A stretch of 33,762 nucleotides of DNA from a bacterium ADurb.Bin243 (lineage in GTDB: Bacteria; Muiribacteriota; UBA9980). Both the position numbers and the translations under genes were made by a program. The notes under the pieces are model-generated. The model saw nothing but the letters and a program-made list of their open reading frames with translations, had not been told where the DNA came from and made no database searches. The DNA lies in assembly GCA_002069765.1 (NCBI GenBank), contig MWBZ01000036.1, forward strand, positions 1 to 33,762. The letters run 5' to 3'. Below, piece by piece: positions 1,224 to 25,346 of this stretch (positions are counted from its first letter, which is position 1; each line of letters begins with the position of its first letter).

Positions 1224-4136
1224 ATGACAGCGTATTTAAAAGACAATTTTCTGACATTGAATTTCTGGTCCAAGTTTAAAAAACCCTTGGTTTTTCTTGA
1301 TTTTGAAACCACCGGCATCAATTTCGAATCCGACAGGATTATCGAAATCGGCGCATTTCGGGTAAAAAACAACCAGATAGGCGAGCAATACGCCGCTTTG
1401 ATAAATCCCGGAGTGGCGGTGCCTCAAAACATAACCGCGCTTACCGGAATCAGCTCCGAAATGCTTGCAGGCGCGCCTGCTATAGAGTCGCAGAAAGAAA
1501 AATTCGCCGAATTCGTCGGCGGAGCCGTTGTGATAGCCCATAACGCGAGTTTCGAAAAAACTTTTATCGCCCGCGACTTCGCTGAGGCGAAACCGGCCGA
1601 TTTTATCGACAGCTGCGAGATCGCCATGCTTATTATGCCGGCTTTAAAATATTTTAATCTCGAAAAGATACTCAACGTTTTTAATATTAAAGAAAGCGAA
1701 GACCACAGGGCGTTCATAGACGCCGTGGACACTTATTACGCCCTGAACCACCTGATCTCTTATTCTCTGGCGACACATAACGAAGAATATTATAAAATGA
1801 TACTCGCCAGCGCCGCAGGCTGTATGAGCCCTTCCACCGTTGAATTTTTTAAAATTTTATATTCGGCGTACAGGGAATTGAACAAGGGTTCAGGCGCCAG
1901 AAAGGCTTCAACCGCCGCCTGCCCGCGTCAGGAATTTCCCGCCGAAGGGCAGTCGTATTTCAAATTCGCTCCCGAACCGGGCCTCGGCGATTCGCTCGAT
2001 ATGCTTTTCGCTTCCCTTAACGAAAAAAACAGGTTGACCAACGACGATTATATAGTTCAGTCCGGCCTTGTTTCGACCACGCTGAAAACATTCGCCGAAT
2101 CGCGATGCGCCATGGTGGAAATCGCTCATAAGATGAACCGCATAGATTGCCTTTTGCATGCCGGGGCCATTCATGCCAGGCGCACCGGCGAAAGCGTTTT
2201 TATTATCGAGTCTCAGCAGGCTGCGATCGACACCATAGCTAAAAAGCATATTCCGATCGCTATGAAGGCTTTTAACGGCGAAATAAAGTTTCACGCGTTG
2301 AAAGAGCCCGAAAATTATATATGCAACCTGAATTTTGAGCTGCTCGAGGAAAACGCTTCGGACGGCGAGGAAAAATTTTTCCTTCTTTATATCAAATGTT
2401 ACCTGACAGCCTCTCCCGACGGCCATCTCGAAAACGTGGCGCCTTTTCTGACCAATAAATATCCAAGGCTCAAGCAGCATCTCGAATTTATAAAATCTTC
2501 GTCGGATTACTGCCTCAGAGAAAAATGCCCGAGGAATAAAAACTGCTACTTTAAAAACGCGCATTATCATTTTTTGAATTCGGACGTCATAATAACTTCC
2601 ATCGCGACTTATTTAAAATGGAAAGAAATACTTTCCGGGTTGAAAAAAGAAAAAACGCTCAACATTATAATGGACCAGGCGCATAAGATCGAAGACGCCA
2701 TGGTGGAGGCTTTCAGCGGAAGATTCAACGAGCGCGAGCTGTTCGGCGTTCTGGAAGAATTTAAAGATTATTACTCGGTTCTGGTTTCGGCCTGCGCGGC
2801 TTCCCGCGACAGCTCAGGCCGGGGCGGATCGGAAAGAAGCGCTCCAGCCGGGGAAACGGGCGCGAATCCGGCCGAAGGCGACGGCAATTTATGCGTTGAA
2901 AACGCATTGAAGACGGCGCTGCACTCTATCGGCGCGGCGCAGGATTTTTTCGGATGCCTGAAGGCCATAGTCGACCAGATGGCTTTCTGCCGCGACGGCG
3001 CGAAGCCGCCGGCGCCTTCGTCCATAGCTTTGAACAAGCTGGTCGAAGACTGCCAGATGCATGAAATATTTTTTGAAAAACTTATCAACCTTTCGATAAA
3101 TCTTAAGAACGCCCGCCGCACGCTTGAAAAGATCGTAAAGAATATGCTCTATTCTCAAAGCGAAGAGTTTTGCGGATGCAAAAAAAGCGAGGCGGTCTTT
3201 AAAACCCATAAATTTTTAAAATGCATTCAAAAATACGATAATTTTATAGTTCTGATAATTCAGTCGTCGGACCTGACTTTCGTTTCTTATTTAAAGCTGG
3301 ACGGCTTCAAGCAGGAATGGTACATACACGTGGAACCCGTGGACATTGGAAAAATTTTATCTAAAAACATCTTCGGCGACGCCAAAAGCTTTATTCTGGT
3401 TTCCTCGGCTCTTTCTGTCGGAACGAGCTATGAATTCATCAAATGGAACCTGGGCCTTCAAAAGTACAGAAAGCTCGAGCTCACCTCCTACTCGCAATAC
3501 TGCAACAACGTTAAGCTCGACCTTATGGTGCCGCGCGAAATGCCCGTCTTCGACTCGAAAAATACGGCGCCTTTCATATCGCGCTTAAGCGAAATGATAG
3601 TGAAAATCGCGGCAAAGAAGCCCCAGAAAACAATGGTTTTATTTAACTCGGTCGAGCGGATGACGAGCGTTTTTAAAATCGTGAACGAAACGCTTGCCGC
3701 CCGCGGAATAAAATGTTTTTATCAGAGGGGCGAAATGCTCAGCGATAAAGCCCGCGAATTTTTAAAAAGCGAAGCGGCATGCGTCATCCTCGGCTCGCAG
3801 GGGCTTATGGATTTTACCGACCTGTGCGACGAGTCGATAGACACTCTGATAATAGAAAAGCTTCCGTTTCCGTTCTTCGAAGACCCGCGCATCGCCATAA
3901 GAAAGAAAAAGGCCGCAACCGACGGCCTTCAGGAATTCGAAGAATATATGCTTCCTAAAACCATACTGAAAATTAAACAAACGATAGGGCGCATCGGGGA
4001 AAAAAACGGAAAAGGCCTTCTGGTTATAGCCGACTCCAAACTCATAAACGCGAAATATTTCGGCGAAGTCTTAAACGCGCTTCCGCTTTATAACACTTAC
4101 TATACTTTTGAAGAATACTGGAGGGATAATAATTAA
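1224..4136 (+). CDS. DnaQ-like exonuclease fused to a DinG-like helicase with decayed ATPase motifs
   Basis: The 970-residue protein joins an N-terminal DEDD 3'-5' exonuclease to a DinG-like helicase. The exonuclease (about 20-185) looks intact: DFETTG with D26 and E28, AHNASFE (Exo II), and HRAFIDAVDT (Exo III). The helicase part keeps the four DinG iron-sulfur cysteines (C367 in ENYIC, then C430, C435 and C441 with 4- and 5-residue spacing, as in E. coli DinG). The Walker A site, normally EAGTGTGKT, reads HAGAIHARR (about 312-320). DEAH reads DQAH (484-487), motif V reads GLMDFTD, and motif VI reads QTIGRIGE without the final arginine. I infer a nuclease or structural partner that cannot hydrolyse ATP. 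A low-complexity linker lies near 530-560. I chose ATG 1224 with AAAGAG in front; GTG 1188 has no ribosome site. Confidence 0.88.
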   Translation: MTAYLKDNFLTLNFWSKFKKPLVFLDFETTGINFESDRIIEIGAFRVKNNQIGEQYAALINPGVAVPQNITALTGISSEMLAGAPAIESQKEKFAEFVGGAVVIAHNASFEKTFIARDFAEAKPADFIDSCEIAMLIMPALKYFNLEKILNVFNIKESEDHRAFIDAVDTYYALNHLISYSLATHNEEYYKMILASAAGCMSPSTVEFFKILYSAYRELNKGSGARKASTAACPRQEFPAEGQSYFKFAPEPGLGDSLDMLFASLNEKNRLTNDDYIVQSGLVSTTLKTFAESRCAMVEIAHKMNRIDCLLHAGAIHARRTGESVFIIESQQAAIDTIAKKHIPIAMKAFNGEIKFHALKEPENYICNLNFELLEENASDGEEKFFLLYIKCYLTASPDGHLENVAPFLTNKYPRLKQHLEFIKSSSDYCLREKCPRNKNCYFKNAHYHFLNSDVIITSIATYLKWKEILSGLKKEKTLNIIMDQAHKIEDAMVEAFSGRFNERELFGVLEEFKDYYSVLVSACAASRDSSGRGGSERSAPAGETGANPAEGDGNLCVENALKTALHSIGAAQDFFGCLKAIVDQMAFCRDGAKPPAPSSIALNKLVEDCQMHEIFFEKLINLSINLKNARRTLEKIVKNMLYSQSEEFCGCKKSEAVFKTHKFLKCIQKYDNFIVLIIQSSDLTFVSYLKLDGFKQEWYIHVEPVDIGKILSKNIFGDAKSFILVSSALSVGTSYEFIKWNLGLQKYRKLELTSYSQYCNNVKLDLMVPREMPVFDSKNTAPFISRLSEMIVKIAAKKPQKTMVLFNSVERMTSVFKIVNETLAARGIKCFYQRGEMLSDKAREFLKSEAACVILGSQGLMDFTDLCDESIDTLIIEKLPFPFFEDPRIAIRKKKAATDGLQEFEEYMLPKTILKIKQTIGRIGEKNGKGLLVIADSKLINAKYFGEVLNALPLYNTYYTFEEYWRDNN

Positions 4137-5964
4137 TAAATTCGAATATATCCTGCAAAACGTATCCAAACCGCAGCAGTACATCGGCTGCGAGTACGGC
4201 CTGAAGCGAATGGAAACGGACGCGCCGGAAAATAAAAACGCCGTTAAAGTGCTGCTTTCGTTTCCCGATACTTACGAGATCGGTATGTCTAACTTCGCGG
4301 TAAAAATATTGTTTGAAATAATGGAATCTATCGACGGCGTAATATGCGACAGGGCTTTTTTGCCCGAAGACGACTGCGCCGCCCTGATGAAAAAAATCGA
4401 TTATCCCCTGCACTCGCTGAACTACCGCATTCCGGCGGCGGAATTCGACGCCATAGGCGTCACTCTCGAATACGAGCTCAATTATTCGAACGTGCTTCAT
4501 TTGCTGGATCTGGCCGGAATCGCGCTTGAATCGAAGGACAGAAAGGAAACCGACCCCGTCGTGATCGCCGGAGGTTCCGCGTGCGTGAACCCGGAGCCCA
4601 TGGCCGACTTTATAGACGTATTTTTTATCGGAGACGGCGAAGAGGCCGCTGCAGAAATATGCGCCGTTTTGAAAGAAAGTAAAAAGTCCGGGCTTAGCCG
4701 CGGCGAAAGAATAAAGGCGCTTTCAAGGCTCCGGGGCGCTTACGTTCCGGCTTATTACGAGCCGGTTTATGGCGAACCGGGCGTCCAGGCCGGAATTAAA
4801 AAAATTCAGGACGGAGCGCCGGAGCGCATAAAAGTCAGGACTATAAAGGACCTGGATTCGGCTTTTCATCCGGTTAAATTGATAGTGCCTAATTTCGAAA
4901 CGGTTTTTAACCGCGGAGTGGTAGAAATCGCCCGCGGCTGCAAGAACGCGTGCCGCTTCTGCCAGGCGGGGTTCATCTACAGGCCTTACCGCGAAAGAAG
5001 CGTAGAAAACATAAAAAGCATAATAAAAAAAATATTTTTGAACACCGGCTATACCGAGTTTACTCTGTCTTCGCTTTCGGCGACCGATCACGGCGGGCTC
5101 AAAGAGATAATAAACTACACTCTGGGCCTGAACGAAGCAGGAGAAGAATTCCGCGGCGCGCTGTTTTCGGTTTCGCTTCCTTCGCAGAGGATTTCGACGT
5201 TTTCGGTCGAACTGGCGGGGCAGCTTTCCAAAAATAAAAAATCGGGCCTGACTTTCGCTCCGGAAGCCGGGTCGCAGAGGATGCGCGACGTGATAAATAA
5301 GAACGTATCGGAGCAGGATCTTTATACAACGGCTGAAGCGGCCGTCGCTTCCGGATACAGGCTTATAAAGCTTTACTTTATGATAGGCCTTCCGTTCGAA
5401 ACGGACGAAGACCTTCTCGAAATGGCAAGGATCATAAGCCGGGTCGCGGCTATAGCGCGCGAGAAAAAAACTCGCGGCTTTTCGATGAACGTAACTTTTT
5501 CCACCTTCGTGCCGAAGCCTCACACTCCTTTTCAATGGGCGCGGCAGGCTTCGCGCGAAGAGGTGGTCAGAAAGCAGGAGCTGATAAGGGAACAGCTGAA
5601 AAAATACCGCGAGATTTGCCTTAAATTCACCAGATACAGCGTCACTGAATTAGAATCCGCGTTCGCGCGCGGTTCGCGGAAACTTTGCGGAGCGCTTCTC
5701 GACGCTTATAAAGACGGATGCCGTTTTGACGCATGGGACGACAGATTGAAACTCGAAAACTGGCGGAGCGCCTTCGAAAAAAACGGCATGAAACTGGCCG
5801 ATTACGCCACGCGGGAAATCAAACCGGGCGATTATCTTCCCTGGTCGTTAGTCGATACGGGAATCGATGCGGGCTTTCTTGAAGAGGAATTCGAAAGCGC
5901 CGAAAAAGAAAGGGCGACGCCTGCATGCGATCCCGGAAGATGCAAACGCTGCGGAATATGCTAG
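4108..5964 (+). CDS. B12-binding-like radical SAM protein (TIGR03960 type)
   Basis: This radical SAM protein has an N-terminal cobalamin-binding-like domain (about 45-190, with SFPDTYEIGMSNFAV and VIAGGSACVNPEP). A radical SAM core follows, with CKNACRFC (C278, C282, C285) binding a 4Fe-4S cluster. The C-terminus has a cysteine cluster (CDPGRCKRCGIC). The order and the length of about 610 residues fit the TIGR03960 family, which usually sits beside or is fused to DUF2344, as here; its substrate is not established. Start: TTG 4108 is the nearest conventional codon and overlaps the upstream gene by 29 bases, but no ribosome site precedes it. A strong GGAGGG at 4120-4125 instead points to ATA 4126, ATA 4129 or ATT 4132. 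Starting at ATT would give the usual short leader before VSKPQQYIG. Family call is firm, start is not. Confidence 0.9.
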   Translation: MKNTGGIIINKFEYILQNVSKPQQYIGCEYGLKRMETDAPENKNAVKVLLSFPDTYEIGMSNFAVKILFEIMESIDGVICDRAFLPEDDCAALMKKIDYPLHSLNYRIPAAEFDAIGVTLEYELNYSNVLHLLDLAGIALESKDRKETDPVVIAGGSACVNPEPMADFIDVFFIGDGEEAAAEICAVLKESKKSGLSRGERIKALSRLRGAYVPAYYEPVYGEPGVQAGIKKIQDGAPERIKVRTIKDLDSAFHPVKLIVPNFETVFNRGVVEIARGCKNACRFCQAGFIYRPYRERSVENIKSIIKKIFLNTGYTEFTLSSLSATDHGGLKEIINYTLGLNEAGEEFRGALFSVSLPSQRISTFSVELAGQLSKNKKSGLTFAPEAGSQRMRDVINKNVSEQDLYTTAEAAVASGYRLIKLYFMIGLPFETDEDLLEMARIISRVAAIAREKKTRGFSMNVTFSTFVPKPHTPFQWARQASREEVVRKQELIREQLKKYREICLKFTRYSVTELESAFARGSRKLCGALLDAYKDGCRFDAWDDRLKLENWRSAFEKNGMKLADYATREIKPGDYLPWSLVDTGIDAGFLEEEFESAEKERATPACDPGRCKRCGIC

Positions 5965-12514: not shown

Positions 12515-13447
12515 TTGTCTATTACTAACTTATACAGGGGCCTCGCTTTTTTTCATTACGGGATTATCGAAAAAATCAGGCGCGAGACCAAAAAGCTTCA
12601 GGACGGCGATTGCGCCGACATAGTTTTAAGTTTTGACCTCAATAAGAGCTCCCAGAAAGTTAAAGCGACCCTCGCCGCGGGGCAGTATATAATCCGAAAC
12701 CGCCATAAAATTTCATTCGGCCACGAGGAATCGGCCGATGAAATTACCATAAGCGATAAGCTGATAGCGCTTCTCGAGAGCACGCCCGAAAAAATTTACG
12801 CTGTCGATTTTATCACGCTTGAAGCGGTCCCGCTACATTTTGCGTCGGAATACGGAAACGTAAAGCTGGCTGCGACCGACGACGCGCCCACGATGGAGAT
12901 AGACGGCGTTAAAATGCACCGCAGCCAGGGAATAAGCCCCTGGGACGATTCAAAATGCAAGGCGCGCGACATAGTGAAACGCGGAATGAGCGTTTTAGAC
13001 ACGTGCACCGGCCTGGGCTATACCGCCATTATCGCGGCGAAAATGGGCGCCAGGTCCGTGATTTCTTTTGAAAGGAATCCGGCGGTCTTAAAAATCGCTT
13101 CTTATAACCCATGGTCTCAGGATTTTTTTGAAAATACGGTCATTAAATCCAATCTGGCCAACGTTTACGATGAAATATTCAAGTTCGAAGATTCGCGCTT
13201 CGACGCCATAATACACGATCCGCCTCGTTTTTCGCTTGCCGGTGAACTGTATTCGGCCGATTTTTATAAAGAAGCGCACCGCGTATTGCGCCATGGCGGA
13301 AAGATGTTTCACTACATCGGCGATCCGCACTCGTCTTTCGGCAAAAAACATTACGCGGGAATAAATATGCGCCTGCGCGAAGCAGGATTCGATACCGTGG
13401 TTTACCATAAAAATTACGGTATAATGTGTCAGAAATTGTCTTTTTGA
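12515..13447 (+). CDS. SAM-dependent methyltransferase, COG2521-type
   Basis: This 310-residue protein has a Rossmann methyltransferase fold in its C-terminal two thirds. Motif I is VLDTCTGLGYTAI (160-172), the acidic post-I strand ends FERNP, and the catalytic loop is HDPPRFSLAGELYS (234-247). DPPR is typical of enzymes that modify nitrogen atoms in nucleic acids or proteins. The combination DTCTGLGYT, NPWS, DPPRFSLAGELY and FHYIGDP is what I remember of COG2521, described mainly from archaea; the substrate is not known to me. The N-terminal 130 residues may bind substrate. TTG 12515 has AAGGTG 7 bases upstream, overlapping the previous stop. The 3' end overlaps the convergent PAP2 gene by 19 bases. 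Confidence 0.8.
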   Translation: MSITNLYRGLAFFHYGIIEKIRRETKKLQDGDCADIVLSFDLNKSSQKVKATLAAGQYIIRNRHKISFGHEESADEITISDKLIALLESTPEKIYAVDFITLEAVPLHFASEYGNVKLAATDDAPTMEIDGVKMHRSQGISPWDDSKCKARDIVKRGMSVLDTCTGLGYTAIIAAKMGARSVISFERNPAVLKIASYNPWSQDFFENTVIKSNLANVYDEIFKFEDSRFDAIIHDPPRFSLAGELYSADFYKEAHRVLRHGGKMFHYIGDPHSSFGKKHYAGINMRLREAGFDTVVYHKNYGIMCQKLSF

Positions 13448-14091
13448 AACCGTTCGATAATAAGGGCCGCAAGATATGAACCCAGGCAGATTCCCCCGAT
13501 TACGTCCATAGGCCAGTGAGAGCCTTCGTAAACTCTTGAAATAAGCATTAAAGCGCAGACGGAAACGATAAAAGTTTTTGCCCGCGCTTTAATTTTTTCG
13601 CTATTTATTTTCAATTGCGCCATGTAAAAAAATACGATCGAGAGAATAACGCTTCTGGTGGCGTGTCCTGAAGGATAAGCGTAAGGCGTGAACGGCGAAT
13701 AAATCGGCACCGGAATTTTAAGGCCGCGCCGGAATTGCGCAAAAACTTTCGGCTGCTCCACGCTGAATTTCATTGAAAGCTCGACTGCCACGGAAAGCCC
13801 GAAAAATAAAAGCAGATAAAACGCGGCTTTTTTATGATTTTTAAGATACAGCCAGGCCGCGAGGGCCGCGGTTATGACGCCAGTCACTTCGCCGCTGCCG
13901 AGTATCGTGAAAAAAAGCGAAAGCCGGTCGAAAACTTCGAGCGGCGCCGACTGGATAAGCTTTATCAACGCCAGGTCTATCGCAAAAACCGAGCGCGACG
14001 CCACCAGGGCGGTAAGCGCCGCAAGCGCTGCCAGGAAGTATTTTCTTTTACAGGTAATATAGCTTATCATGCGGTTAAAATTCTGAATCAA
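13429..14091 (-). CDS. PAP2-type membrane phosphatase
   Basis: The 220-residue integral membrane protein has about six hydrophobic segments and the second and third signatures of the PAP2 superfamily: PSGH (140-143) and SRVYEGSHWPMD (185-196; arginine 186, histidine 192, aspartate 196). The first signature, K-x6-RP, is not clear; the region reads MKFSVEQPKVFAQFRR. Relatives dephosphorylate phosphatidate, undecaprenyl pyrophosphate or lipid A with the active site on the outer face of the membrane. It is the last gene of the minus-strand operon, 26 bases after the preceding membrane protein. TTG 14091 is the longest start; ATG 14070 is nearly as likely, and neither has a clear ribosome site. 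Confidence 0.8.
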   Translation of the reverse strand: MIQNFNRMISYITCKRKYFLAALAALTALVASRSVFAIDLALIKLIQSAPLEVFDRLSLFFTILGSGEVTGVITAALAAWLYLKNHKKAAFYLLLFFGLSVAVELSMKFSVEQPKVFAQFRRGLKIPVPIYSPFTPYAYPSGHATRSVILSIVFFYMAQLKINSEKIKARAKTFIVSVCALMLISRVYEGSHWPMDVIGGICLGSYLAALIIERFQKDNF

Positions 14092-14117
14092 CTATTACTT
14101 TTTTTCTTAGAAAACTA

Positions 14118-15551
14118 TTACTTCACAACCGCGGGCGCGGCCGCCTTTCCTGCCGCCGCGTTCATTTTATTGGCGACATCGGTAACGTAGGGCCTTTTTG
14201 CGTATAATAAAAGCCTCAGAAGCGAAGTTTTGAAACCGAGGGTGTCGTCTTCTTTAATCGCGCGGTCAAGGTTTTCAGTGTTTTTATCCAGATATAGCAT
14301 TATATCGTCGCGTTTTTCTTCTACATAGCCCAGATACGAATGCTGGCCGAACCCGTCGAAGATCTGGTCGGGCATCATGGCTTCTATATCGCCGCAGAGA
14401 ATAAAATCGGTAAGCGCGTTTTTTACCTCGTAACCGCTCATATAAGAGTAATTAACCGTATAATCTTCGTCTTTTGAACCGTCGGTTTTAACGTCTTTGC
14501 TTTCAGTCCTTGAAAACAAAACTTTTCCGATTATTTCCGTCGTGTCGTCGATTACGCCGTTGCCGTCCAGATCGAGATAATAGCGGTAAACGCAGTCGTC
14601 GGCATAGTTAAACCAGAAATCCTCGAACGCGATTTTGGCTATATCGCCCTTTGCGTCGGACAGGACATATCCGCCGTTTAAAATGCGCCATGGGAAAGCG
14701 TCCCAGTATTGCGAAATTTTAAACGCGTATATTTCTTCGCTCGATTTTACGCCGTTGAAATAATCGCTCATGCTTTGAAAAACGCCGGGTATTTCATTGA
14801 AAAGATATAAGTCCGAGCCCTGCGGCATTACTCCGAAAAGCCCTGTTTCGGCCGAATGATATATAAGCTTCGACTTGCCGGCGTTTTGTTCGTAAAGTTT
14901 TGTACTGTACCTGTATTTATCTCCCAGAAGGCCGAAGTAGCGGCGGCCGTCCGTGAGCCGGTAGCGCCAGACGGGCTTTTGTGCGCCTTCGTCGATCACG
15001 TAAGTGTCGGCGTCAACGGAGCGGGCTATTTCGGGGGCCGTTTCGAGCGTTATCAGCTTGATTTCTTCCGTGGCGGCGCGGGCGTCTATAATGCCGGCAA
15101 CGTTCTGGATATAATTTGAACGCGCGATATCGAATATGGCGCGGGATTTTTCGGACTTGGTCGAAGCCTGGGCCACTTTTTGATAAGTGGTATTTAAAAG
15201 TTCGTATTCGTCTATATCTCCTATTTCACGGCGCTTGGATTTGCACATTATGGCTTTGATCCGAACGTCGTTTTCGCCGGCCTGCATGGTTTCTCCGCTG
15301 AAGATGCCGCCTTCGGAGATGGAGGCGCTCGAAGAACGGTCCACGTGATATCTTGATGAATTGACCGACAGCGTCACCGACTCGTTTACCCTATAAATGA
15401 CGTTGCGTTCTGGATATGAAAGCCGTGACGTGAGATAAAAGTAAAGAAAAAGCCCTATTATAATGCCTCCGAATAAAATTATTCCGAGCGCGCCGACTAT
15501 CCATTTTCTGAGCCATACCGGAATCCGGTCGAGTCTTTCGCCAATAGTCAT
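14118..15551 (-). CDS. Single-pass membrane protein of unknown function with an EF-hand-like loop
   Basis: I do not recognise this 477-residue protein. A short N-terminus (MTIGERLDRIPVWLRKW) precedes one transmembrane helix (about 16-41), and the remaining 430 residues should lie outside the cytoplasm. That domain looks like a beta-rich extracytoplasmic fold and contains DLDGNGVIDD (coding bases near 14548-14578), an EF-hand-like calcium-binding pattern. A helical, charged C-terminal stretch with DKNTENLDRAIKEDD follows, and it ends in an Ala-rich tail. I chose ATG 15551 because AAGGA lies 7 bases before it; the TTG at 15572 would overlap the upstream gene. It sits in the AAA+ operon and may be its envelope-facing component, which is inference. 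Confidence 0.7.
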   Translation of the reverse strand: MTIGERLDRIPVWLRKWIVGALGIILFGGIIIGLFLYFYLTSRLSYPERNVIYRVNESVTLSVNSSRYHVDRSSSASISEGGIFSGETMQAGENDVRIKAIMCKSKRREIGDIDEYELLNTTYQKVAQASTKSEKSRAIFDIARSNYIQNVAGIIDARAATEEIKLITLETAPEIARSVDADTYVIDEGAQKPVWRYRLTDGRRYFGLLGDKYRYSTKLYEQNAGKSKLIYHSAETGLFGVMPQGSDLYLFNEIPGVFQSMSDYFNGVKSSEEIYAFKISQYWDAFPWRILNGGYVLSDAKGDIAKIAFEDFWFNYADDCVYRYYLDLDGNGVIDDTTEIIGKVLFSRTESKDVKTDGSKDEDYTVNYSYMSGYEVKNALTDFILCGDIEAMMPDQIFDGFGQHSYLGYVEEKRDDIMLYLDKNTENLDRAIKEDDTLGFKTSLLRLLLYAKRPYVTDVANKMNAAAGKAAAPAVVK

Positions 15552-15568
15552 ATTAAGATCCTTTAATA

Positions 15569-16165
15569 TCAATAATTATTCAATTTATCGTCGAGTTTTT
15601 TATTCGACTCGTAATTTTTCTTTTCTTTATCGCCGTCTTCTTTTTTATCGCCGTCTTTGAATATATTTTCGGAAGCTTTAGCTATGCCTTCGCCTACCGA
15701 CTTCAATCCGTCCTTGATATTGCTTCCGGCATCCTGTATGGCTTCTACGACGGATTTGCGGGCGCCGTCGTCGTCCGCTTTCGTGCCGGTAGCGTCTGCG
15801 GATCCGGCCGGAAACTTTTCGCTTTCAGCCCCGGCGGCGGGGGAATCTACCGTTTTATCATCGCCGGCCGCGGTTTTGGAAGAGGGTTTCTTAAACGCCC
15901 AGTCGTAGGATTTAAGAAAAAAATCGCCCGTCACAAAGCCGAGGACCATTCCCGCAAGGCAGAACGGAGCGTTAAAGAAGCTGAGGGTGAAAAATCCCAT
16001 GAAAAAATAAGGGGCCATTACTATCGCCAGCGAAAGCCCGAGCTTGAATTTAAAGGTTTTTCCATTTATCCACTCGCTTTTTTTAAAATCTTCGCCGGAA
16101 AAATACCTGTCGAGAACGCTTATAAAAAGAGCTATTATGAAATATCCCAGAAGCCAGTTAATCAT
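15569..16165 (-). CDS. Small membrane protein with a charged cytoplasmic or periplasmic tail, unknown
   Basis: The 198-residue protein has three hydrophobic segments in its first 90 residues (WLLGYFIIALFISVL; LGLSLAIVMAPYFFMGFF; FFNAPFCLAGMVLGFVTG). About 105 hydrophilic residues follow, rich in Ala, Asp, Lys and Ser. The tail contains an amphipathic stretch, VVEAIQDAGSNIKDGLKSVG, and a duplicated KDGDKKEDGDK (coding bases about 15627-15662, an imperfect DNA direct repeat). No family is recognised. Its ATG lies inside the end of the preceding gene (ATGATTAA, 8-base overlap), with AAGGAG 11 bases upstream, so translational coupling is likely. Its place among AAA+ operon genes suggests a membrane anchor for that system. 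Confidence 0.7.
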   Translation of the reverse strand: MINWLLGYFIIALFISVLDRYFSGEDFKKSEWINGKTFKFKLGLSLAIVMAPYFFMGFFTLSFFNAPFCLAGMVLGFVTGDFFLKSYDWAFKKPSSKTAAGDDKTVDSPAAGAESEKFPAGSADATGTKADDDGARKSVVEAIQDAGSNIKDGLKSVGEGIAKASENIFKDGDKKEDGDKEKKNYESNKKLDDKLNNY

Positions 16166-17480
16166 TAATTACATCACTCCTTCTTAATTCACCCGATAGG
16201 TATTTTAGAATATAATATTTCTTTTCGAGCGGCATTCGCACGAGCTCCCTTTCGAGCGCTCCCGCGTCGCTGTAATAACGGCGCACGAAATTGTGCGTGT
16301 CGAAGAGACAGAGCAGCTTATTTACGACGTTGAATTCCGTTTTTGCGAACGCCAGAAGATATTTCGCTTCTTGAGGCATTCTGGCGATTTCTTTCTTTTT
16401 ATTAACTCCAGGACGCTCGAATACTCCCTTTAATTCGTGCAAAGAATTTATGATTTCGGGCATGCCGGAACTTTGCTCCGACCTCGCCCTTTCGAGTTCG
16501 AATTTTGAAAGCCTGTTGACGTCGTAGCCTTTTTCAAGAAGGAATAAATCTTCGAGCAGTTCGGCTTTTTCAAGGATAAAAGCCGGGTTTGTATGGAAAT
16601 TTATAAAATTAAGGGATTGCAGATTTTCGATTACGCTTGCGGAGCTTATTTCAACCGGATATAAGCCGGCTTCCGGTTCGCCGGCGGGCGCGTAATCGCC
16701 TTTGTTGTAAAAAAGCAGCGTGTTTTTATTCGCGGCGTCGAATAATGAAATAATAGTCCTCGGGTAATTCATGTAAAAAGACTGCAGCGCTATGGAAATT
16801 TCGTTTACATAAACTTTTTTGAATATATTTTTTACGCCGCGGCCGGTTTTTTTGACTATTTCCATAATTTCGGCGATATAGGCGTCGGAGAGTATATTGT
16901 CGTCGTCGGCGAGGCCGGAGGCGAGGCTCTGAAGCCTTGAAATATCGGCGACGCGCTCTCCGGCGGTGTCGATATTCATTGTTACGCTGCGCAGCCGGTG
17001 GATTTTGGAAATGTCGTCGAAATTTCTGAGGTTGAACTTGTATTGTATTATGGCGGCTTCGTCTTTCGTCAAAAACTTTATTATTTCGTCGTATTTTTTA
17101 TAAGCGGCGTTCAGGCATTCTTCGAGAAACGAAAAAGGCGCGTCCGCGAGCCTTGCGTCCTGCTGTTCCGGCGAGACCACTATTGAATAATAAGTGGCCG
17201 GCGGCATGAAAAGATAGTTCGGGTTATTCAAAAACTCCGCGATTTCAGGGCAATACCCGTTTTTGTCCATCAGGTACGAGGCGTTTTCTGGAAGGCCGTC
17301 CAGCTGAGAATAGCCGAACACCTTTTTTAAAACGTCTATATAGCGTTTTAAAAGAAAACCGTCGAGCCTGAAAATGTGGTCGGTTTTAAACAGCCTTTCA
17401 AGCAGAGCTTGAGATTCTTTTTCGTATTTTTCCTCATAAAGGCTTTTATATGAGCCTTCACTGCCGTTTTTTTCACTCAT
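16158..17480 (-). CDS. Unknown helical cytoplasmic protein of the AAA+ operon
   Basis: This 440-residue protein matches no family I know. It has no signal peptide or transmembrane helix and is predicted to be almost wholly alpha-helical, with charged amphipathic segments (for example LLEDLFLLEKGYDVNRLSKF) and few glycines. No catalytic motif is visible. Its start codon overlaps the end of the AAA+ ATPase gene (ATGAGTGA), and its stop overlaps the following membrane protein gene by 8 bases, so all three are translationally coupled. An adaptor or structural subunit working with the ATPase is the simplest guess. Confidence 0.75.
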   Translation of the reverse strand: MSEKNGSEGSYKSLYEEKYEKESQALLERLFKTDHIFRLDGFLLKRYIDVLKKVFGYSQLDGLPENASYLMDKNGYCPEIAEFLNNPNYLFMPPATYYSIVVSPEQQDARLADAPFSFLEECLNAAYKKYDEIIKFLTKDEAAIIQYKFNLRNFDDISKIHRLRSVTMNIDTAGERVADISRLQSLASGLADDDNILSDAYIAEIMEIVKKTGRGVKNIFKKVYVNEISIALQSFYMNYPRTIISLFDAANKNTLLFYNKGDYAPAGEPEAGLYPVEISSASVIENLQSLNFINFHTNPAFILEKAELLEDLFLLEKGYDVNRLSKFELERARSEQSSGMPEIINSLHELKGVFERPGVNKKKEIARMPQEAKYLLAFAKTEFNVVNKLLCLFDTHNFVRRYYSDAGALERELVRMPLEKKYYILKYLSGELRRSDVIND

Positions 17481-19377
17481 CGGATTTTTTGCCCTCGTAT
17501 AATTTAACGAATTCTTTTTTAGCTTCGTATTCGTTGATCATGGAATTCAAAATGCGCTCGCGGGCCGAAGTTTTAGCGTCGGATTTATACCTCGCTTCGG
17601 AGTTGAAATACCTTTCGAGCTCGCTCATCACTTTTTCAGCCGTTATAGGCTTGTATAACTCCTTGAGTTTATTGACTTTTTCGACGAAACTCAATTTCAG
17701 AAAGGTTTCGGGTTTCGTAAAAAATTCCTCGGGTATTTCGAAATCGGCGGAATACTCTTTGAGGTTCTCGCCTATGCTGTGTATCGGCCTTCCGGTGAAG
17801 CGCTCGTCTTTTTTCTTGAATTCGATGCAAAGCCTGCCGATATCTTCCCAGGTGCAGCCCTTTTTGCCGCCGCCCGATATTTTAGAAATAAAATCCGAAA
17901 GAATTCCGCCGCCGGTTCCGCTTTTTTCTTGCGCGGCCGTGTTTTTTTCAGGCGCCGCGGCCGGCTCCATGCTTTTGGGTTTAACGAAATCGGTGTCGCC
18001 GTCCACTTTTAAAATACCGGCTTTCAATTGCGGCTGAAGTTTGGTGAATATCAGCGAAGCGTAATCCTGCCATGTTTCGGGGCCGGCCACCAGATAGCGC
18101 TGGTGGAACCTCTGCCTTAAAGCCGAATCAGTGGAGGTGGGCTCGTTGGTGGCGGCGTAAACCTGGCAGTTGCCTATGGGCTTTGTGAACATGCCGTCTA
18201 AAAACTGCATCGTGATATTTAAAACGTCTTTATCGGATCCGCCCATGTTGGGATCGCCGCGCGAGAGCAGCAGAAGGTCTACGTCGTCGAAGAAAACCAG
18301 CATGAGCTTGTTTTTCTGCTTTGTTTTATCCAGCCTGTCGAGCAGGTTTTTACCCGTCTTGCCGTAATATTCGTCTTTTATTCGCTGGTCGATGGATATG
18401 AATTCCACGGGCGTTCCGGTCTGCTCGCCGCGCTCGTGCAGCCTCGACATCGCGAGCTTGAAGAGCGAAGTTTTTCCGGTGCCCGGAAGGCCGTCGAATA
18501 AAACGCTCCAGGAGAGGCCGCCTAATACCGAAATGGGATTGAGCGCCTCTTTGACATCGAAAAGAGCCAGCCTGTCGACATTTCTGATAACGCCGCGCTT
18601 GGAGTCGCTGTTGCCGACGATTTCTTCAGGGCGCACTTTTACGAACTCGATTTTCTGCTCTGACGTGGAGTATTGCGAATCAAAATTAGAAACGCTTATG
18701 TCGTCGCCTTCGACCTTGAATACCGTATTTGAAACCAGCGCCAGCAGGTCGTCGGAAAACTTTTTGCGGTTGTTCACGCAGGCGTTTTTGAGCTGTATGA
18801 AAAAATTATTGGAAAGCCCGACATAATCTATGGAATCTATTATGATCTTCTTTCCCGATTCGTCGGCCGTGTTCAGCGCGTGGACGTAATCGCAAAGAAG
18901 AGTGGATATCGTATCGATTTTACCCTTTGTGAATATGAAATAATCTTCGGCGAGTTTAATCGCGGGAAGGTTTTCGCGTGAATTAACGCTTAGAATGAGC
19001 CCCATTTTTATGGAAACATAACTTGCGAGGGCGAAAAGAGAATAAGTAGTGACGAATTCGAGAGTATCGCGGAATTTTCTTTCGTCGCGGCCGGCGGGCG
19101 AACTTATCATGTGGCCGAGACCGCTTTTGTTTTCCAGCAGATCGAAAATGACCATATATACGCCGAGCCCTTTTCTGATCGCGCGAAGCGCTTCGGCCTC
19201 TTCGAGAGTGTGCAGGTGCTGCTCGTCGGGAACGACTTTCATAACGAAGTCGAAAAGGTTAATCTTGCGCTGGTTGTACAATATATTGGTCATGCGGAAT
19301 TCGCATTCCTCGAGGTGCTTTTTTATGTCGTCCGCGGTTATCGGATGAACGTTGTTTGCTGCGCTTACATTACTCAA
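17473..19377 (-). CDS. AAA+ ATPase of unknown system
   Basis: The 634-residue protein has a 280-residue helical N-terminal region without recognised domains, then a classical AAA+ module. Walker A is GLPGTGKT (296-303), Walker B is MLVFFDDVD (359-367), sensor 1 is AATNEPTS (408-415), and the arginine finger region is LRQRFHQRY (420-428). A disordered Ala/Lys/Gly linker (about 460-500) and a helical C-terminal region follow. It resembles single-ring remodelling ATPases more than helicase loaders or proteases; the substrate is unknown. TTG 19377 is chosen because GGGGGAG lies 6 bases upstream and the codon overlaps the preceding stop. It is embedded in an operon of unknown genes with overlapping ends. 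Confidence 0.88.
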   Translation of the reverse strand: MSNVSAANNVHPITADDIKKHLEECEFRMTNILYNQRKINLFDFVMKVVPDEQHLHTLEEAEALRAIRKGLGVYMVIFDLLENKSGLGHMISSPAGRDERKFRDTLEFVTTYSLFALASYVSIKMGLILSVNSRENLPAIKLAEDYFIFTKGKIDTISTLLCDYVHALNTADESGKKIIIDSIDYVGLSNNFFIQLKNACVNNRKKFSDDLLALVSNTVFKVEGDDISVSNFDSQYSTSEQKIEFVKVRPEEIVGNSDSKRGVIRNVDRLALFDVKEALNPISVLGGLSWSVLFDGLPGTGKTSLFKLAMSRLHERGEQTGTPVEFISIDQRIKDEYYGKTGKNLLDRLDKTKQKNKLMLVFFDDVDLLLLSRGDPNMGGSDKDVLNITMQFLDGMFTKPIGNCQVYAATNEPTSTDSALRQRFHQRYLVAGPETWQDYASLIFTKLQPQLKAGILKVDGDTDFVKPKSMEPAAAPEKNTAAQEKSGTGGGILSDFISKISGGGKKGCTWEDIGRLCIEFKKKDERFTGRPIHSIGENLKEYSADFEIPEEFFTKPETFLKLSFVEKVNKLKELYKPITAEKVMSELERYFNSEARYKSDAKTSARERILNSMINEYEAKKEFVKLYEGKKSDE

Positions 19378-20566
19378 TCAGATCTCCCCCTTCTAAAAGG
19401 CCGTAAATTTTTGCGGGCTTGCCGGTCTCGTCTTTGTCGCGAAGGTATTGCTTAAGTTTAAACGGAACTATCATATAATCGTAAACGAATTTATCTGAAA
19501 AAATCTCGCGGCTGTTTGCGTAGCCGAACAGCGAATTGAAAAAGTTCTTGACTACGGAGCTTTCTTTTATAGTTTTTATCGAAACCAGCCCGGAAGCCTG
19601 AAATTTAAATAAAAACGGATTTTTGGGCTCCATTTTGATCAGCCTGTCGATATGCTCTTCGTTGATGGTAGTGGGCGAATAATAAGGCCCGAGAGTATAT
19701 TTCATAATTACTTTAGGATGGATTTCATGGTCGAAAGTATCTAAATGATGCGCCAGCCTGAATAAATCCTGCTTGTAGTAATTTTTTATCTCGTCTAAAA
19801 ACTGATGCGAACCGTCCTGCCGGAGCTGTTTTGGAGATTGCGAATTTTGCGTCAGCAGCATGGAATAAAAATGAAAAATATTATAGCGCTCGTCGAAACC
19901 GTAAAATATTAGTTTATAAAGGTTTTGCCCGTCCTTTTCGCCTATAAGGACGGGTTTGTTCATTTTATAATCTGAAATAATGCTTTTTTTATCTTTTATA
20001 TATGAAAAATAATTATATTTTGCGTAGGAAAGCTGCTCGCGGATGGGGAATTCGCCGTCGAAGATGGCGTTCATGGCGTTTTTGACTATATCGTCGAGCG
20101 GCGGAAGCATATCCAGCTGGGCGGCGGCCGATTCGTGGTCTTTTTTAAAATTCCACAGGTCCGTGAAATGAGGGAATCCGGATTCCGTAGGGTCTATGGA
20201 AAGCGATGTCGCGTTTATGCCTTTATGCTGCAGTATAAATTTGCGTTTTAGCGCGTTAAAGAAGAATATAAGCTCGTCTAAAAATTCGCAGAAGTCTTTT
20301 TTCGTATCGAAGCTTTCTTCGAGCGGAGCTTTGAAAGAGTAGTTCTCGCTGTTGTAAAAAAGGTCTTTGAGCCTGGTTATTATTAAAATGACGTTGGCGA
20401 GGTAGCCGTTTATTTCTTCGGGCTGTAAAGACTTAACGTTAACCTCGCCAGTTTTAAGGTTAAAAAAATTGGCGAGGTTAACGTCGGTATTAACGGATGA
20501 GTTTTCGTTCTGCGATCTTTCGGCGCCTCGGTCGGCGTCGGTATTATCGATGTTATTTGTATTCAT
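19370..20566 (-). CDS. Unknown soluble protein preceding the AAA+ ATPase
   Basis: I do not recognise this 398-residue protein. The first 35 residues are Asn- and Asp-rich and probably disordered. The rest is mixed helix and strand without signal peptide or membrane span, with many aromatic residues ([38 protein letters not shown]). No catalytic signature is visible. Its ATG lies inside the last codons of pdp (14-base overlap), and its end overlaps the ATPase start, which argues for balanced co-expression with the ATPase. A partner or substrate adaptor is plausible; no function is claimed. Confidence 0.75.
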
Positions 20567-21887
20567 AGGTGAATACGCCCTGCGAATTAACTATATAATG
20601 AATAAGCGATTGTATTTTGGGCATGCGCGACGTGAACGCGTAGGCGCTTAAAAGCCTGTCGTAGGCTATTTTGGCCAGACCCATGTCGTTGGCGTGTATG
20701 GTGACTATCTTCGTGCCGGATTCGACGTAGTCGCCGATCTTTTTCTCGAGAATAACGCCTACGGCGGGATCTATAGTGTCTTCTTTGGTGGCCCTGCCGG
20801 CGCCGAGGATCATGGCGGCGTTTCCTATTTCCATGGCGTTTATTTTTTCTACATAGCCTTCGTGCGTTGCCAGCACTTCTACTTTAAATTTTGCCTTGGG
20901 CAGTTTATCGTAGTCGTCTACCGCAGATGAATCGCCGCCCTGGGCCTCGATCATGTTTTTGAATTTGTTGAGCGCCATGCCCGAATCGAGGGCGGAAAGC
21001 AGCATCGCCTTGGCGTCTTTGTAGTTGCCGCAGATATTGCCGCAGATGAGCATATGCGATGAAATTTCGATGGCCAGTTCTTCGAGGTCGGAAGGGCCGC
21101 GGCCGCGGAGCGTGTCGATGGCCTCTATGACTTCTATGGAATTGCCTATGGCGCGTCCGAGCGGCTGGTCCATGTCGGTTATCAGCGCTATCGTCTGGCG
21201 TTTGGCGCCGGTGCCGATCTCGACCATGGAGCGCGCGAGCGCTATAGCTTCCTGGGGCGTCTGCATAAATGCGCCCGAGCCGGTTTTGACGTCAAGGACT
21301 ATAGCGTCGGCTCCGCCCGCGAGCTTTTTGCTCATTATAGAGCTCGCTATAAGGGGAATCGAGTCTACCGTTCCGGTAGAATCGCGAAGGGCGTACATTT
21401 TTTTATCGGCCGGAACCAGGTTGCCCGTCTGGCCGACGACGGCGATTTTATATTTATTTACGTTATTTATGAATTGTTCGGATGAAAGGTTTATCTGAAA
21501 GCCGGAAATGGCTTCGAGTTTATCGAGCGTTCCGCCCGTATGGCCGAGGCCGCGCCCGCTCATTTTGGCTACGGGCACTCCGCAGGCCGCGCAAAGCGGC
21601 GCGACTACGAGCGTGGTTTTATCGCCTACGCCGCCGGAGCTGTGTTTGTCGACTTTTATTCCCTCGATTTTGGAGAGATCGACCATATCGCCTGATTTAG
21701 CCATCGTTTCGGTTAGATATAAAGTTTCCTGGGCGTTCATAGACTTGAAATAGACGGCCATTAAAAAAGCCGCCATCTGATAGTCTTTTATTTCTCCGGT
21801 TACATAGCCCGAAACCATAAACTCTATTTCTTCGCGGGATAACGTGCCTCCATTCCTTTTCTTTAAAATTATATCATAAGGCCGCAT
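20553..21887 (-). CDS. pdp: Pyrimidine-nucleoside phosphorylase
   Basis: This cytoplasmic enzyme splits uridine, deoxyuridine or thymidine with phosphate into a free base and (deoxy)ribose-1-phosphate in nucleoside salvage. The 444 residues span the family's helical and alpha/beta domains. [12 protein letters not shown] (phosphate-binding loop) and [17 protein letters not shown] (the family signature) are intact, as are [22 protein letters not shown] and [10 protein letters not shown]. Length and the [11 protein letters not shown] form fit the Pdp type; thymidine phosphorylase (deoA) is the alternative. ATG 21887 follows GGGGG by 8 bases and a sigma-70 promoter by about 30. It is the first gene of the operon, and the next gene starts inside its last codons, an unusual setting for a salvage enzyme. 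Confidence 0.95.
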
Positions 21888-21921: not shown

Positions 21922-21950
21922 ATTCTATCATATTAAAAGCTAAAAATCAA
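21922..21950 (-). promoter_or_regulatory. Sigma-70 promoter of the pdp-AAA+ operon
   Basis: On the minus strand TTGATT (21945-21950) and TAGAAT (21922-21927) are 17 bases apart. The predicted start lies about 30 bases before the pdp ATG. It is the only good promoter seen upstream of the whole overlapping operon down to 13429. Confidence 0.65.
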
Positions 21951-22065: not shown

Positions 22066-22917
22066 TTAACGTTTGATTGAACTTAATTGGTATTTTCCGG
22101 CGGTGGCGGGACTCTGTTCGGCCACTTCGGGCCAGAAGTAAAGGATGAGCTTTTTATATGTCGGCGTCTGCTTCAGGCCGCCGAGCGTTCCGCTGTGAGT
22201 GCCTTTGGAAATTACCGCTTTAAAAGCTTCTTCGCCGCTGTAGCCTTTTCTGAGCACGAGATATTTGGCGATTACCGAGCCGGTGCGGTCGCAGCCCCAG
22301 TTGCAGTGCACATAGGCGCCTTCGTCTATAAGGCGCATGAGCGTTTCGGTTTGTTCCGCGTCGGGAACCGTTTCTGAATTCATCCGGCACGGGTAGAAAT
22401 TGAGATCCAGCTCGGCGCAAAATTCTTTTATCATTTTAATTTCGCGGCCCTGCGTGACCGGAACGTTTAAAGCGATTATATTTTTGGCGCCTATCACTTT
22501 TAGGAATATGAGATACTTCTTTACGCGTTCGGGGCTGTTTGCCAGCGTTACAGGATTAAAAAGATTGCCGCCCGCGAAGAGTTTTTTATCTATGACCCTG
22601 AAGTTATAAGGATACTTGCCGGAGCCTTTGACGTCGTCGAACTTAATGCAGTCGCTGTGGCGGTCGGCCGATAGCGATTCGCCGAGTTTTTTATTTTTTG
22701 AAGAGTTTTCGTCGATTTCGCCGCCTGAAAAACCGTCGGATGTGATTTCTTCCGCGGCGTCTTTGTAAAAATAATTATGATACGGGCTTTTTTCTATGTA
22801 AGCTACCGAGGCGAGCCGGTCGGAAGCCGAATTATAGGCGTGCGCGGCCGGCGAAAAAAGCAGCGGGGTTATTGCGGCTGCCGCCATTAATAATGAGTTA
22901 AATTTAATGTTTCTCAT
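22066..22917 (-). CDS. Exported cysteine-dependent (dual-specificity/tyrosine) phosphatase
   Basis: The 283-residue protein begins with a signal peptide (FNSLLMAAAAITPLLFSPAAHA, probable cut after AHA at residue 27), so it should act in the periplasm or outside. The second half has the cysteine-phosphatase fold. The signature HCNWGCDRTG carries nucleophile C205 and R211, the C-x5-R loop that holds phosphate. FRVIDKKLFAGGNLF upstream resembles the start of bacterial DSP/tyrosine phosphatase domains. Substrates could be phosphoproteins, phosphoinositols or inositol phosphates; the sequence does not decide. It lies 32 bases after the HD-GYP gene, with which it is probably co-transcribed, and is followed by a terminator. 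Confidence 0.85.
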   Translation of the reverse strand: MRNIKFNSLLMAAAAITPLLFSPAAHAYNSASDRLASVAYIEKSPYHNYFYKDAAEEITSDGFSGGEIDENSSKNKKLGESLSADRHSDCIKFDDVKGSGKYPYNFRVIDKKLFAGGNLFNPVTLANSPERVKKYLIFLKVIGAKNIIALNVPVTQGREIKMIKEFCAELDLNFYPCRMNSETVPDAEQTETLMRLIDEGAYVHCNWGCDRTGSVIAKYLVLRKGYSGEEAFKAVISKGTHSGTLGGLKQTPTYKKLILYFWPEVAEQSPATAGKYQLSSIKR

Positions 22918-22949: not shown

Positions 22950-25220
22950 CTAAAACAGGCTGAGCGGTTTTATTATGCCGTCGACCATGGATTTGATTCC
23001 CGATATATTAATTATATTATCGTTCGCAATTTCGATATCTTCACTAATTTTTTTACATTTATCAGAAATTTTTACGAAAATTCCTACGATTTCAGGATCG
23101 AACTGGCTTCCCGCGCATCTTTTGATCTCTTCGAGCGCCACTTCATGAGAAAGTCCCTTGCGGTAAGGCCTGGTTGAAGTCATGGCGTCGTAAGTGTCGG
23201 CAAGCGCTATTATTTTGGAGCCGAGGGGGATTTGATCGCCTTTGAGGTTGTCGGGATAGCCTTTGCCGTCGAAGCGCTCATGGTGGTGCTTGATCTGAAG
23301 GCATACGCTTTTTAAAAATTCGACGGATTCCAGTATGCGCGCTCCGGTGATAGGGTGGTTCTTTATGCAGTTGAATTCGTCGTTGGTAAGGCTCGACGGC
23401 TTTTGCAGTATGGATTCGGCTATTCCGATCTTGCCGATATCGTGCAGAAGAGCGGCGTGCTTTAGAGTGTTGATTTCGTTTTCGCTCATTCCGATTTCAC
23501 GCGCGAGCGCGAGCGCGAGGCCCGTTACTCGCCGCGAATGGCCGTGAGTGTAAGAATCTTTGGCGTCCAGCGCGGCGGCCAGGCTCTGCACCGTTTCAAG
23601 ATAAACCCTGAGCAGGTCGTTATAAAGATTTGAATTTTCTATGGCTACCGCGGCATGGCACGAAATAGTGGTGAGCAGATTGAGATTGTCTTCGCTGAAA
23701 GACCCGCCTTTATCGAGGAGCCTTTCGCAGCATATTACTCCTTCGACGCGGTTTTTAACCATTATCGGCGAGCATATTAGCGATTTGGGAAGCTCGTCGT
23801 GCAGAACGTTATGCTTTTTATATGACGGCTCCAGAAATGTGTTCGCTATTAAGCGCGGCTTGCCTTTTTTAGCCACCGCGCCGGCCACGCCTTCGCCGGG
23901 GGCGAATGTGAGCTCGTTGACGTATTGCTCGGGAAGCCCGATGTGCGAAATGATTCTGAGCCGTTCGCGCCTTTCGTCCCAGAGCATTATTGAAGCCATG
24001 TCGGCGTCGAAAATGCTTTTCATGCTTTCTATGATTCTGGCTATGATATTTTTTAAATCGAGCGATGAGTTAAGCGCGAGGCCCAGGTTGTGCAGCATCG
24101 TTATTTCGACCAGACGCTGCTCTTTCTGAGTGTAAAGCCTTGCGTTCTCGATAGCGGTGGCTATTTGGGTGGCGAGAGTTTCCAGAAGCTGCAGATCGCT
24201 GTCGTTGAAAACTTCCGAATTTTTTTTATTATTGACGTTTATTACCCCTATTACTTTGTCTTTGATTATTAAAGGAACCGACAGAACCGATTTTGTTTTG
24301 TAGTCGGCGCCGGTTTTAGAATATTTGGAGAAGTCAGGGTCTTTTGAAATATCGGTTATGAGGAGAGGCTTGCCTGTTTTGGCGACGTATCCGGCGATGC
24401 CTTCGCCCATTTTTGTTTTTGCGCTTTTTATTATCGTTTCGTCGAGGCCGTGCGCCACTACTATTTTTAAAGTTTGCGGATCGCCGCCGAGAAGCATGAG
24501 CGAACATATTTCAACGCCCATGACTTCGGAGATGAGCACAATGGTCGTTTTTAAAAGCGTTTGCAGTTCGAGAGTGGAATTTATTATTCCGGAAACCTTA
24601 TTTAGCGCGGTAAGCCGTTTAACCCTTTCCTCGGCTTTGCTGCGAAGCTTATAATTATCGGCCAGAAGAGAAGACGCTTCTTCGATTTCGTATTTTTGAG
24701 TGGAATTCTGTATGAGCATATCTACCGATGTCATAAGAAAATTGGCCTTGGCTTTATAATTAGGAAGCGAAATCAACTCGATGTCTCTCAAGTAATCGCG
24801 TATTTCGTCGAAGTTGAGCTTGAGTTCGGCGTTGCGCTGCAGCTTTTCGAGGAACGCCTGTTTGTCTTCGCGCGTAAGAAAAACGGCTTCTCCGGTTATA
24901 TAGCCTATTATCGTGGATTTTTCTATTTTGATGGGGACTACGAAAAAAGAGAGCCCGCGGCCGCACTTTATGACGCTGAATCCTTCGACTCCGAAAGAGA
25001 AAATGCTGTCTCCGACGGTATCGCAGCATCCTTCGGCGACGCTGGAGTGCTCGAGAAAAAGGCTGCAAATCTTTTTTGGGGGCTGTTTGGCGAAGATAAT
25101 GCCGAAAGATTCGTCGCGCAGGGCGACGCTGATATTGGTAGCGAGCTGAAAGTTAAGCATCAAATTTTTCAGGTCGCTTAATTTGATTATTTTTTCATGC
25201 TTCCATTTTTTTTCTGCCAT
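22950..25220 (-). CDS. PocR-GAF-GAF-HD-GYP protein, probable cyclic-di-GMP phosphodiesterase
   Basis: The 756-residue protein has four parts: a PocR-like sensory domain (about 15-170, with cysteines in KKIC, EGCC and IKCGRGLSFFVVPI that may bind metal or haem), two GAF domains (about 215-355 and 380-525), and a C-terminal HD-GYP domain (about 545-720). The last has HSRRV, ALLHDIGKIGI (HD), IKHHHERFDGKGYP (the HHE and GYP blocks) and ADTYDAMTS, all the metal and substrate residues expected of an active phosphodiesterase that degrades cyclic di-GMP. No transmembrane span is seen. ATG 25220 follows TGGAG by about 5 bases; the longer frame from 25319 adds a hydrophobic stretch with no family match. 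A strong promoter lies about 120 bases upstream. Confidence 0.92.
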   Translation of the reverse strand: MAEKKWKHEKIIKLSDLKNLMLNFQLATNISVALRDESFGIIFAKQPPKKICSLFLEHSSVAEGCCDTVGDSIFSFGVEGFSVIKCGRGLSFFVVPIKIEKSTIIGYITGEAVFLTREDKQAFLEKLQRNAELKLNFDEIRDYLRDIELISLPNYKAKANFLMTSVDMLIQNSTQKYEIEEASSLLADNYKLRSKAEERVKRLTALNKVSGIINSTLELQTLLKTTIVLISEVMGVEICSLMLLGGDPQTLKIVVAHGLDETIIKSAKTKMGEGIAGYVAKTGKPLLITDISKDPDFSKYSKTGADYKTKSVLSVPLIIKDKVIGVINVNNKKNSEVFNDSDLQLLETLATQIATAIENARLYTQKEQRLVEITMLHNLGLALNSSLDLKNIIARIIESMKSIFDADMASIMLWDERRERLRIISHIGLPEQYVNELTFAPGEGVAGAVAKKGKPRLIANTFLEPSYKKHNVLHDELPKSLICSPIMVKNRVEGVICCERLLDKGGSFSEDNLNLLTTISCHAAVAIENSNLYNDLLRVYLETVQSLAAALDAKDSYTHGHSRRVTGLALALAREIGMSENEINTLKHAALLHDIGKIGIAESILQKPSSLTNDEFNCIKNHPITGARILESVEFLKSVCLQIKHHHERFDGKGYPDNLKGDQIPLGSKIIALADTYDAMTSTRPYRKGLSHEVALEEIKRCAGSQFDPEIVGIFVKISDKCKKISEDIEIANDNIINISGIKSMVDGIIKPLSLF

Positions 25221-25346
25221 TTTTGCTCCAGTGTTAAATTTTAATTCCAGCAAAATAATACTCGTAAAAATCGAAAAAAGAGAAAACTCTAAGCGGGTTT
25301 CCTCTATATCAATCAACAACCGGACTTTTTAGTATATAATAACAAC

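Follow-up and report, generated by a model that had tools for sequence, protein, structure and literature searches.

A conserved AAA+ gene core with variable membrane neighbours in an operon of bacterium ADurb.Bin243

Introduction

The stretch from position 1 to 33,762 of contig MWBZ01000036.1 of bacterium ADurb.Bin243 (the window) contains seven closely packed genes, among them a nucleoside phosphorylase, an AAA+ ATPase, membrane proteins and a phosphatase. Do they form a single functional unit? A preliminary description had proposed an envelope-associated machine, expressed from one promoter. We find that the seven-gene operon is not one unit: p398-AAA-DUF6638 belongs together with a membrane module and with a coiled-coil partner, whose gene is located elsewhere in this genome. 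The nearest named relatives of this genome are Candidatus Wallbacteria.

Gene layout

The features of the region are as follows.

20553..21887, minus strand: pdp, pyrimidine-nucleoside phosphorylase, first gene (NF004747, 613 bits, cut-off 559)
19370..20566, minus strand: p398, soluble protein of 398 aa, core partner 1, with no Pfam, NCBIfam, PADLOC or PHROG family
17473..19377, minus strand: AAA+ ATPase of 634 aa, PF00004 (E 1.4e-17) plus long N- and C-terminal regions
16158..17480, minus strand: p440, soluble protein of the DUF6638 family (PF20343; 41.4 bits, cut-off 27), core partner 2
15569..16165, minus strand: p198, membrane protein, small part of the membrane module; hydrophobic segments 1-19, 46-64 and 66-84, charged tail
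14118..15551, minus strand: p484/p477, large part of the membrane module; start at ATG 15551 or TTG 15572
13429..14091, minus strand: PAP2-superfamily phosphatase (E 3.1e-17)
21922..21950, minus strand: weak promoter-like site 5' of pdp, TTGATT-17-TAGAAT, 9/12

The seven consecutive minus-strand open reading frames at 13429-21887 are present as first described, and so are the tight junctions: pdp and p398 overlap by 14 nt, p398/AAA, AAA/p440 and p440/p198 by 8 nt each. At the p198/p484 junction there is a 4 nt overlap if p484 starts at TTG 15572, or a gap of about 17 nt if it starts at ATG 15551. The ATG start gives a protein of 477 aa and agrees with the starts in relatives. PAP2 begins 26 nt downstream of p484 and is probably co-transcribed with it. 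The dN/dS values are 0.03-0.18 for all seven (compared with loci L003 and L005; PAP2 with one relative), which indicates purifying selection, so they all look like real genes. The gene order is intact in the window's genus, in the whole of L003 and up to the contig end in L005.

The single promoter could not be confirmed. The sole candidate (21950-21922) scores 9/12, and chance alone often yields sites of such a score (27 were found, 17.9 are expected). The upstream gene, 178 nt from pdp, has the same orientation. This gene (22066-22917, minus strand) codes for a dual-specificity-phosphatase-like protein and is preceded by a gene for a PocR-GAF-GAF-HD_5 protein (22950-25319, minus strand). L003 has open reading frames in both places which are similar by size comparison alone.

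Core gene order

Four of the proteins had been considered to belong to no family. This is still the case for p398, p198 and p484, which match nothing in Pfam or NCBIfam, but p440 is a DUF6638 protein. Its match to PF20343 (E 1.1e-10) is over the curated cut-off and is limited to roughly positions 13-185 of a profile with 439 positions. Alphaproteobacterial DUF6638 homologues found in the same gene order match the full-length profile, with up to 703 bits. No function has been described for this family, and a literature search found no paper which names it. Homology between p398 and DUF6638 was rejected. Structure prediction from the sequences of three close relatives gave a mean pLDDT of 42.5 for p398 and 37.4 for p440; PDB profile searches with p398, DUF6638, DUF1523, the coiled-coil protein and p484 found nothing usable.

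The order p398-AAA-DUF6638 is kept in a distant Wallbacteria family (genome G032), in Alphaproteobacteria and in Vibrio chromids. Homologues of p398 adjoin the AAA gene in loci L017-L020, L023 and L081-L093. All 13 Pseudomonadota loci that were fetched have the order coiled coil-(p398)-AAA-DUF6638; one of them is L092, where p398 has no scored row of its own and a 377-aa open reading frame occupies its slot. The replicons of Rhizobiaceae and Vibrio are concordant in core order. In several Pseudomonadota loci AAA and DUF6638 are separated by further genes, which depend on the lineage: Rhizobiales have a DUF559 endonuclease there, Rhodobacterales DUF4145/HEPN-like (a weak match) and AbiJ_NTD4 proteins. 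The module is single-copy, with stable chromosomal flanks (a cho transporter and formate-THF ligase in 5/6 Rhizobiales loci). Identity of the core proteins across phyla is about 20-25%, and the conservation of synteny at such a low identity points to a joint function.

A scattering of these genes in relatives would have spoken against a common machine. What we find is mixed: p398-AAA-DUF6638 stays together, pdp and PAP2 drop out. The window's genus is the only one in which these two genes were seen beside the core, and they are missing from the fetched Pseudomonadota loci; the G032 contig begins at p398, so the upstream position of pdp lies outside it.

Pairs of p398 and DUF6638 without AAA occur in two Wallbacteria lineages, G029-G031 and G032 (C312). 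The pair of G029-G031 sits behind an ABC-2 permease (the ABC ATPase is seen in G031), while the G032 pair has no such permease. In G029 and G031 it is followed by a short protein whose N-terminus contains a hydrophobic segment. Loci L025 (419-4028), L048 and L049 show an AAA-less variant, a row of ABC-2 permease, p398-like and DUF6638-like genes, with a short N-terminal-hydrophobic protein in L025 and L048.

The AAA+ ATPase

The AAA domain (PF00004) scores 64.9 bits, with a cut-off of 21.2. The ATPase was thought to have all catalytic motifs, and most of them are indeed found: Walker A (GLPGTGKT), the sensor-1 asparagine (N411) and the arginine fingers (R421/R423). The exception is Walker B (FFDDVD). 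Classical AAA proteins have DE in this motif, with a catalytic glutamate, and here the second position is aspartate, as it is in 21/21 AAA homologues.

Full-length homologues, with about 25% identity, are found in Alphaproteobacteria (including Rhizobiaceae replicons), in Vibrio replicons and in G032. A sample of 398 Pseudomonadota genomes includes 25 which have such a homologue. Among the 381 genomes drawn as relatives, mostly from outside the phylum, Wallbacteria alone matched the AAA search. The tree of these AAA proteins has long branches.

Coiled-coil and membrane partners

A coiled-coil protein of about 360 residues precedes the core in Proteobacteria. It is present in 25/25 Pseudomonadota genomes with the AAA gene and in 1/55 of the others (Fisher p 7e-20, kinship ignored). 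This single exception and a R. leguminosarum plasmid contain remnants of the module, in which the coiled-coil gene is directly followed by DUF2333 (L098 5982-8550, L099 4777-7131); p398, AAA and DUF6638 are absent and the usual flanks are kept. The window's genus has a homologue away from the core (G000, C150; E 3.2e-7, hhalign E 1.2e-5). This match is divergent and weaker, and includes a stretch beyond plain heptad repeats; coiled-coil similarity can inflate such scores. G032 yielded no homologue; its contig does not include the upstream side of the core. In the window's own genome (L047, C150) the homologue has a family-less protein of 494 aa in its vicinity (3101-4219 and 346-1830), and L051 has the two side by side.

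Several candidate relatives of this protein were discarded. A relationship to PspA was rejected, since the hhalign result is within the range of shuffled controls. The family has no Pfam match to ESCRT-III or PspA, and none to TelA at E up to 5, so it does not indicate a Ter/TelA stress system. A 361-aa Pseudomonas plasmid protein was also rejected as a homologue. One genome of the Pseudomonadota set has a DUF2333 gene near pspA, with two open reading frames between them (L096 5303-8510); four other DUF2333 neighbourhoods have no annotated pspA.

On the other side of the core, most lineages encode a membrane-anchored protein after DUF6638, of a type which varies by lineage (transmembrane segments were assigned by hydropathy plot alone). 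In the window's genus this slot contains p198 and p484. The latter has one transmembrane helix near its N-terminus, followed by about 430 residues which are probably outside the cytoplasm; by sequence, it is found only in this genus. G032 has a 191-aa transmembrane protein in the place of p198 (L023 4456-5031), with no detected homology to it, and a 3-TM exported protein. The slot is occupied by DUF2333 (PF10095) in 5/6 Rhizobiales loci and by DUF1523 (PF07509) in 10/10 loci of Rhodobacterales type, sometimes behind a small 2-TM protein. The exceptions are Vibrio, with no membrane gene directly after DUF6638, and L019, which also deviates.

Profile comparison of the membrane proteins of different lineages detected no relation between them. 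Homology of p484 to DUF2333 or DUF1523 was discarded for lack of a detectable sequence relation, and that of p198 to the small transmembrane proteins of G032 or Rhodobacterales was rejected after comparison. Both DUF2333 and DUF1523 are also found at sites distant from any such AAA gene; a single T6SS paper mentions DUF2333, as uncharacterised (PMC5256989). The recurrence of a membrane neighbour which is not homologous from one lineage to another suggests a link to the envelope. The idea of an envelope-associated machine gains support, of a genomic kind: a membrane-anchored or exported protein follows the core in Wallbacteria, Rhizobiales and Rhodobacterales.

Possible role of the module

Our preferred reading, to which we would give about an even chance judging from sequence, is that the module may be a remodelling machine, driven by the AAA+ protein and coupled to the envelope through membrane anchors which are exchangeable. 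The AAA protein would form a hexamer, with a nucleotide cycle which might be slow or switch-like, given aspartate instead of glutamate in Walker B. p398 and DUF6638 would be adaptors of this hexamer, and the coiled-coil protein would serve it as a substrate or scaffold. The membrane module (p198 and p484; elsewhere DUF2333, or a 2-TM protein and DUF1523) would dock the machine at the inner membrane, and could pass movement to the periplasm or sense it. pdp and PAP2 would share the transcript in the window's genus, outside the machine.

Other explanations should be weighed against this one. The genes might simply be unrelated passengers on a common transcript. The restriction of pdp and PAP2 to one genus fits this, as do the membrane proteins, which are not detectably homologous between lineages. 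The core, on the other hand, keeps its order between phyla in which its proteins are about 20-25% identical, and the co-occurrence of the coiled coil with AAA is almost perfect. Chance packing is not expected to persist so long, which makes this explanation very unlikely. A role in conflict or anti-phage defence, in which AAA and its partners sense infection and the variable nucleases or HEPN proteins are the effectors, has some points in its favour: the best PADLOC matches of the AAA domain are IetA models (E 7e-11), and the DUF559 endonuclease, DUF4145/HEPN-like (weak) and AbiJ_NTD4 genes between AAA and DUF6638 vary by lineage. The IetA match, however, is limited to the common AAA domain, no PADLOC model matched p398, DUF6638, p198 or p484, and scans of viral contigs found no phage or viral-contig homologues of the module. 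Since these phage links are absent and the flanks of the single-copy module are stable in the chromosome (5/6 Rhizobiales loci), we consider a defence role improbable.

It is also conceivable that pdp is a true partner, and that the machine serves deoxynucleoside salvage or responds to a nucleoside-like signal. Different deoxynucleoside genes are found beside the module in three lineages: pdp, thymidine kinase (6/8 rhizobial loci: L017, L020, L081, L083, L098 and L099) and deoC (four Rhodobacterales loci: L084, L086, L087 and L105); in L098, L099 and L105 these genes are near module remnants. A stress connection might be read from a Pseudomonas plasmid, where DUF1523 directly precedes a TerD-vWA protein (L104 4992-6629), but this stretch is without the core. 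The deoxynucleoside pattern involves three different enzymes and was picked post hoc. Furthermore, a clear gap separates tdk from the module, the deoC genes of L084, L086 and L087 lie on the opposite strand, and the surroundings of the module in Vibrio, L019, L082, L090 and L091 yielded no deoxynucleoside gene. We believe this link to be unlikely.

The remodelling machine may be drawn in a more specific form, as a membrane remodeller similar to Vps4/ESCRT-III and of separate origin: a coiled-coil polymer at the inner membrane, a DD-type AAA hexamer, two adaptors and interchangeable anchors, the hexamer disassembling or pulling the polymer through the adaptors. We propose this version as a distinctly speculative one, with little likelihood of being right in full.

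The gene set is apparently undescribed so far, a literature search having found no paper on the module. Common Alphaproteobacteria which are genetically tractable preserve the order of a four-protein AAA+ module, and an uncultured phylum preserves that of its three-gene core. The module apparently has no published function, and its named parts permit a direct test in laboratory strains. If our reading is true, a constant core with differing membrane partners would show one motor fitted to different envelopes.

Comparison with known systems

The AAA domain, with Walker A, sensor 1 and arginine fingers, is common to the window's ATPase and those of CDC48, CdvC/Vps4 and IetA. Unlike the classical AAA remodellers, the window's protein has a DD Walker B and long unmatched regions at both termini, and it is far under every equivalog cut-off. 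For CdvC/Vps4, the equivalog score is 32.7 bits (cut-off 650), and the coiled-coil family was not recognised as a partner of ESCRT-III/PspA type. In the case of IetAS the likeness consists of AAA-domain similarity: the score with NF042959 is 29 bits (cut-off 510), no IetS-like partner matched, and the module has other partners and a stable chromosomal context. PspA/IM30 (ESCRT-III-like) systems also combine a coiled-coil partner with an AAA protein, but the coiled-coil family described here has no similarity to PspA above shuffled controls. Finally, the membrane proteins DUF2333 and DUF1523 occupy, in Rhizobiales and Rhodobacterales respectively, the place after DUF6638 which corresponds to p198 and p484 in the window.
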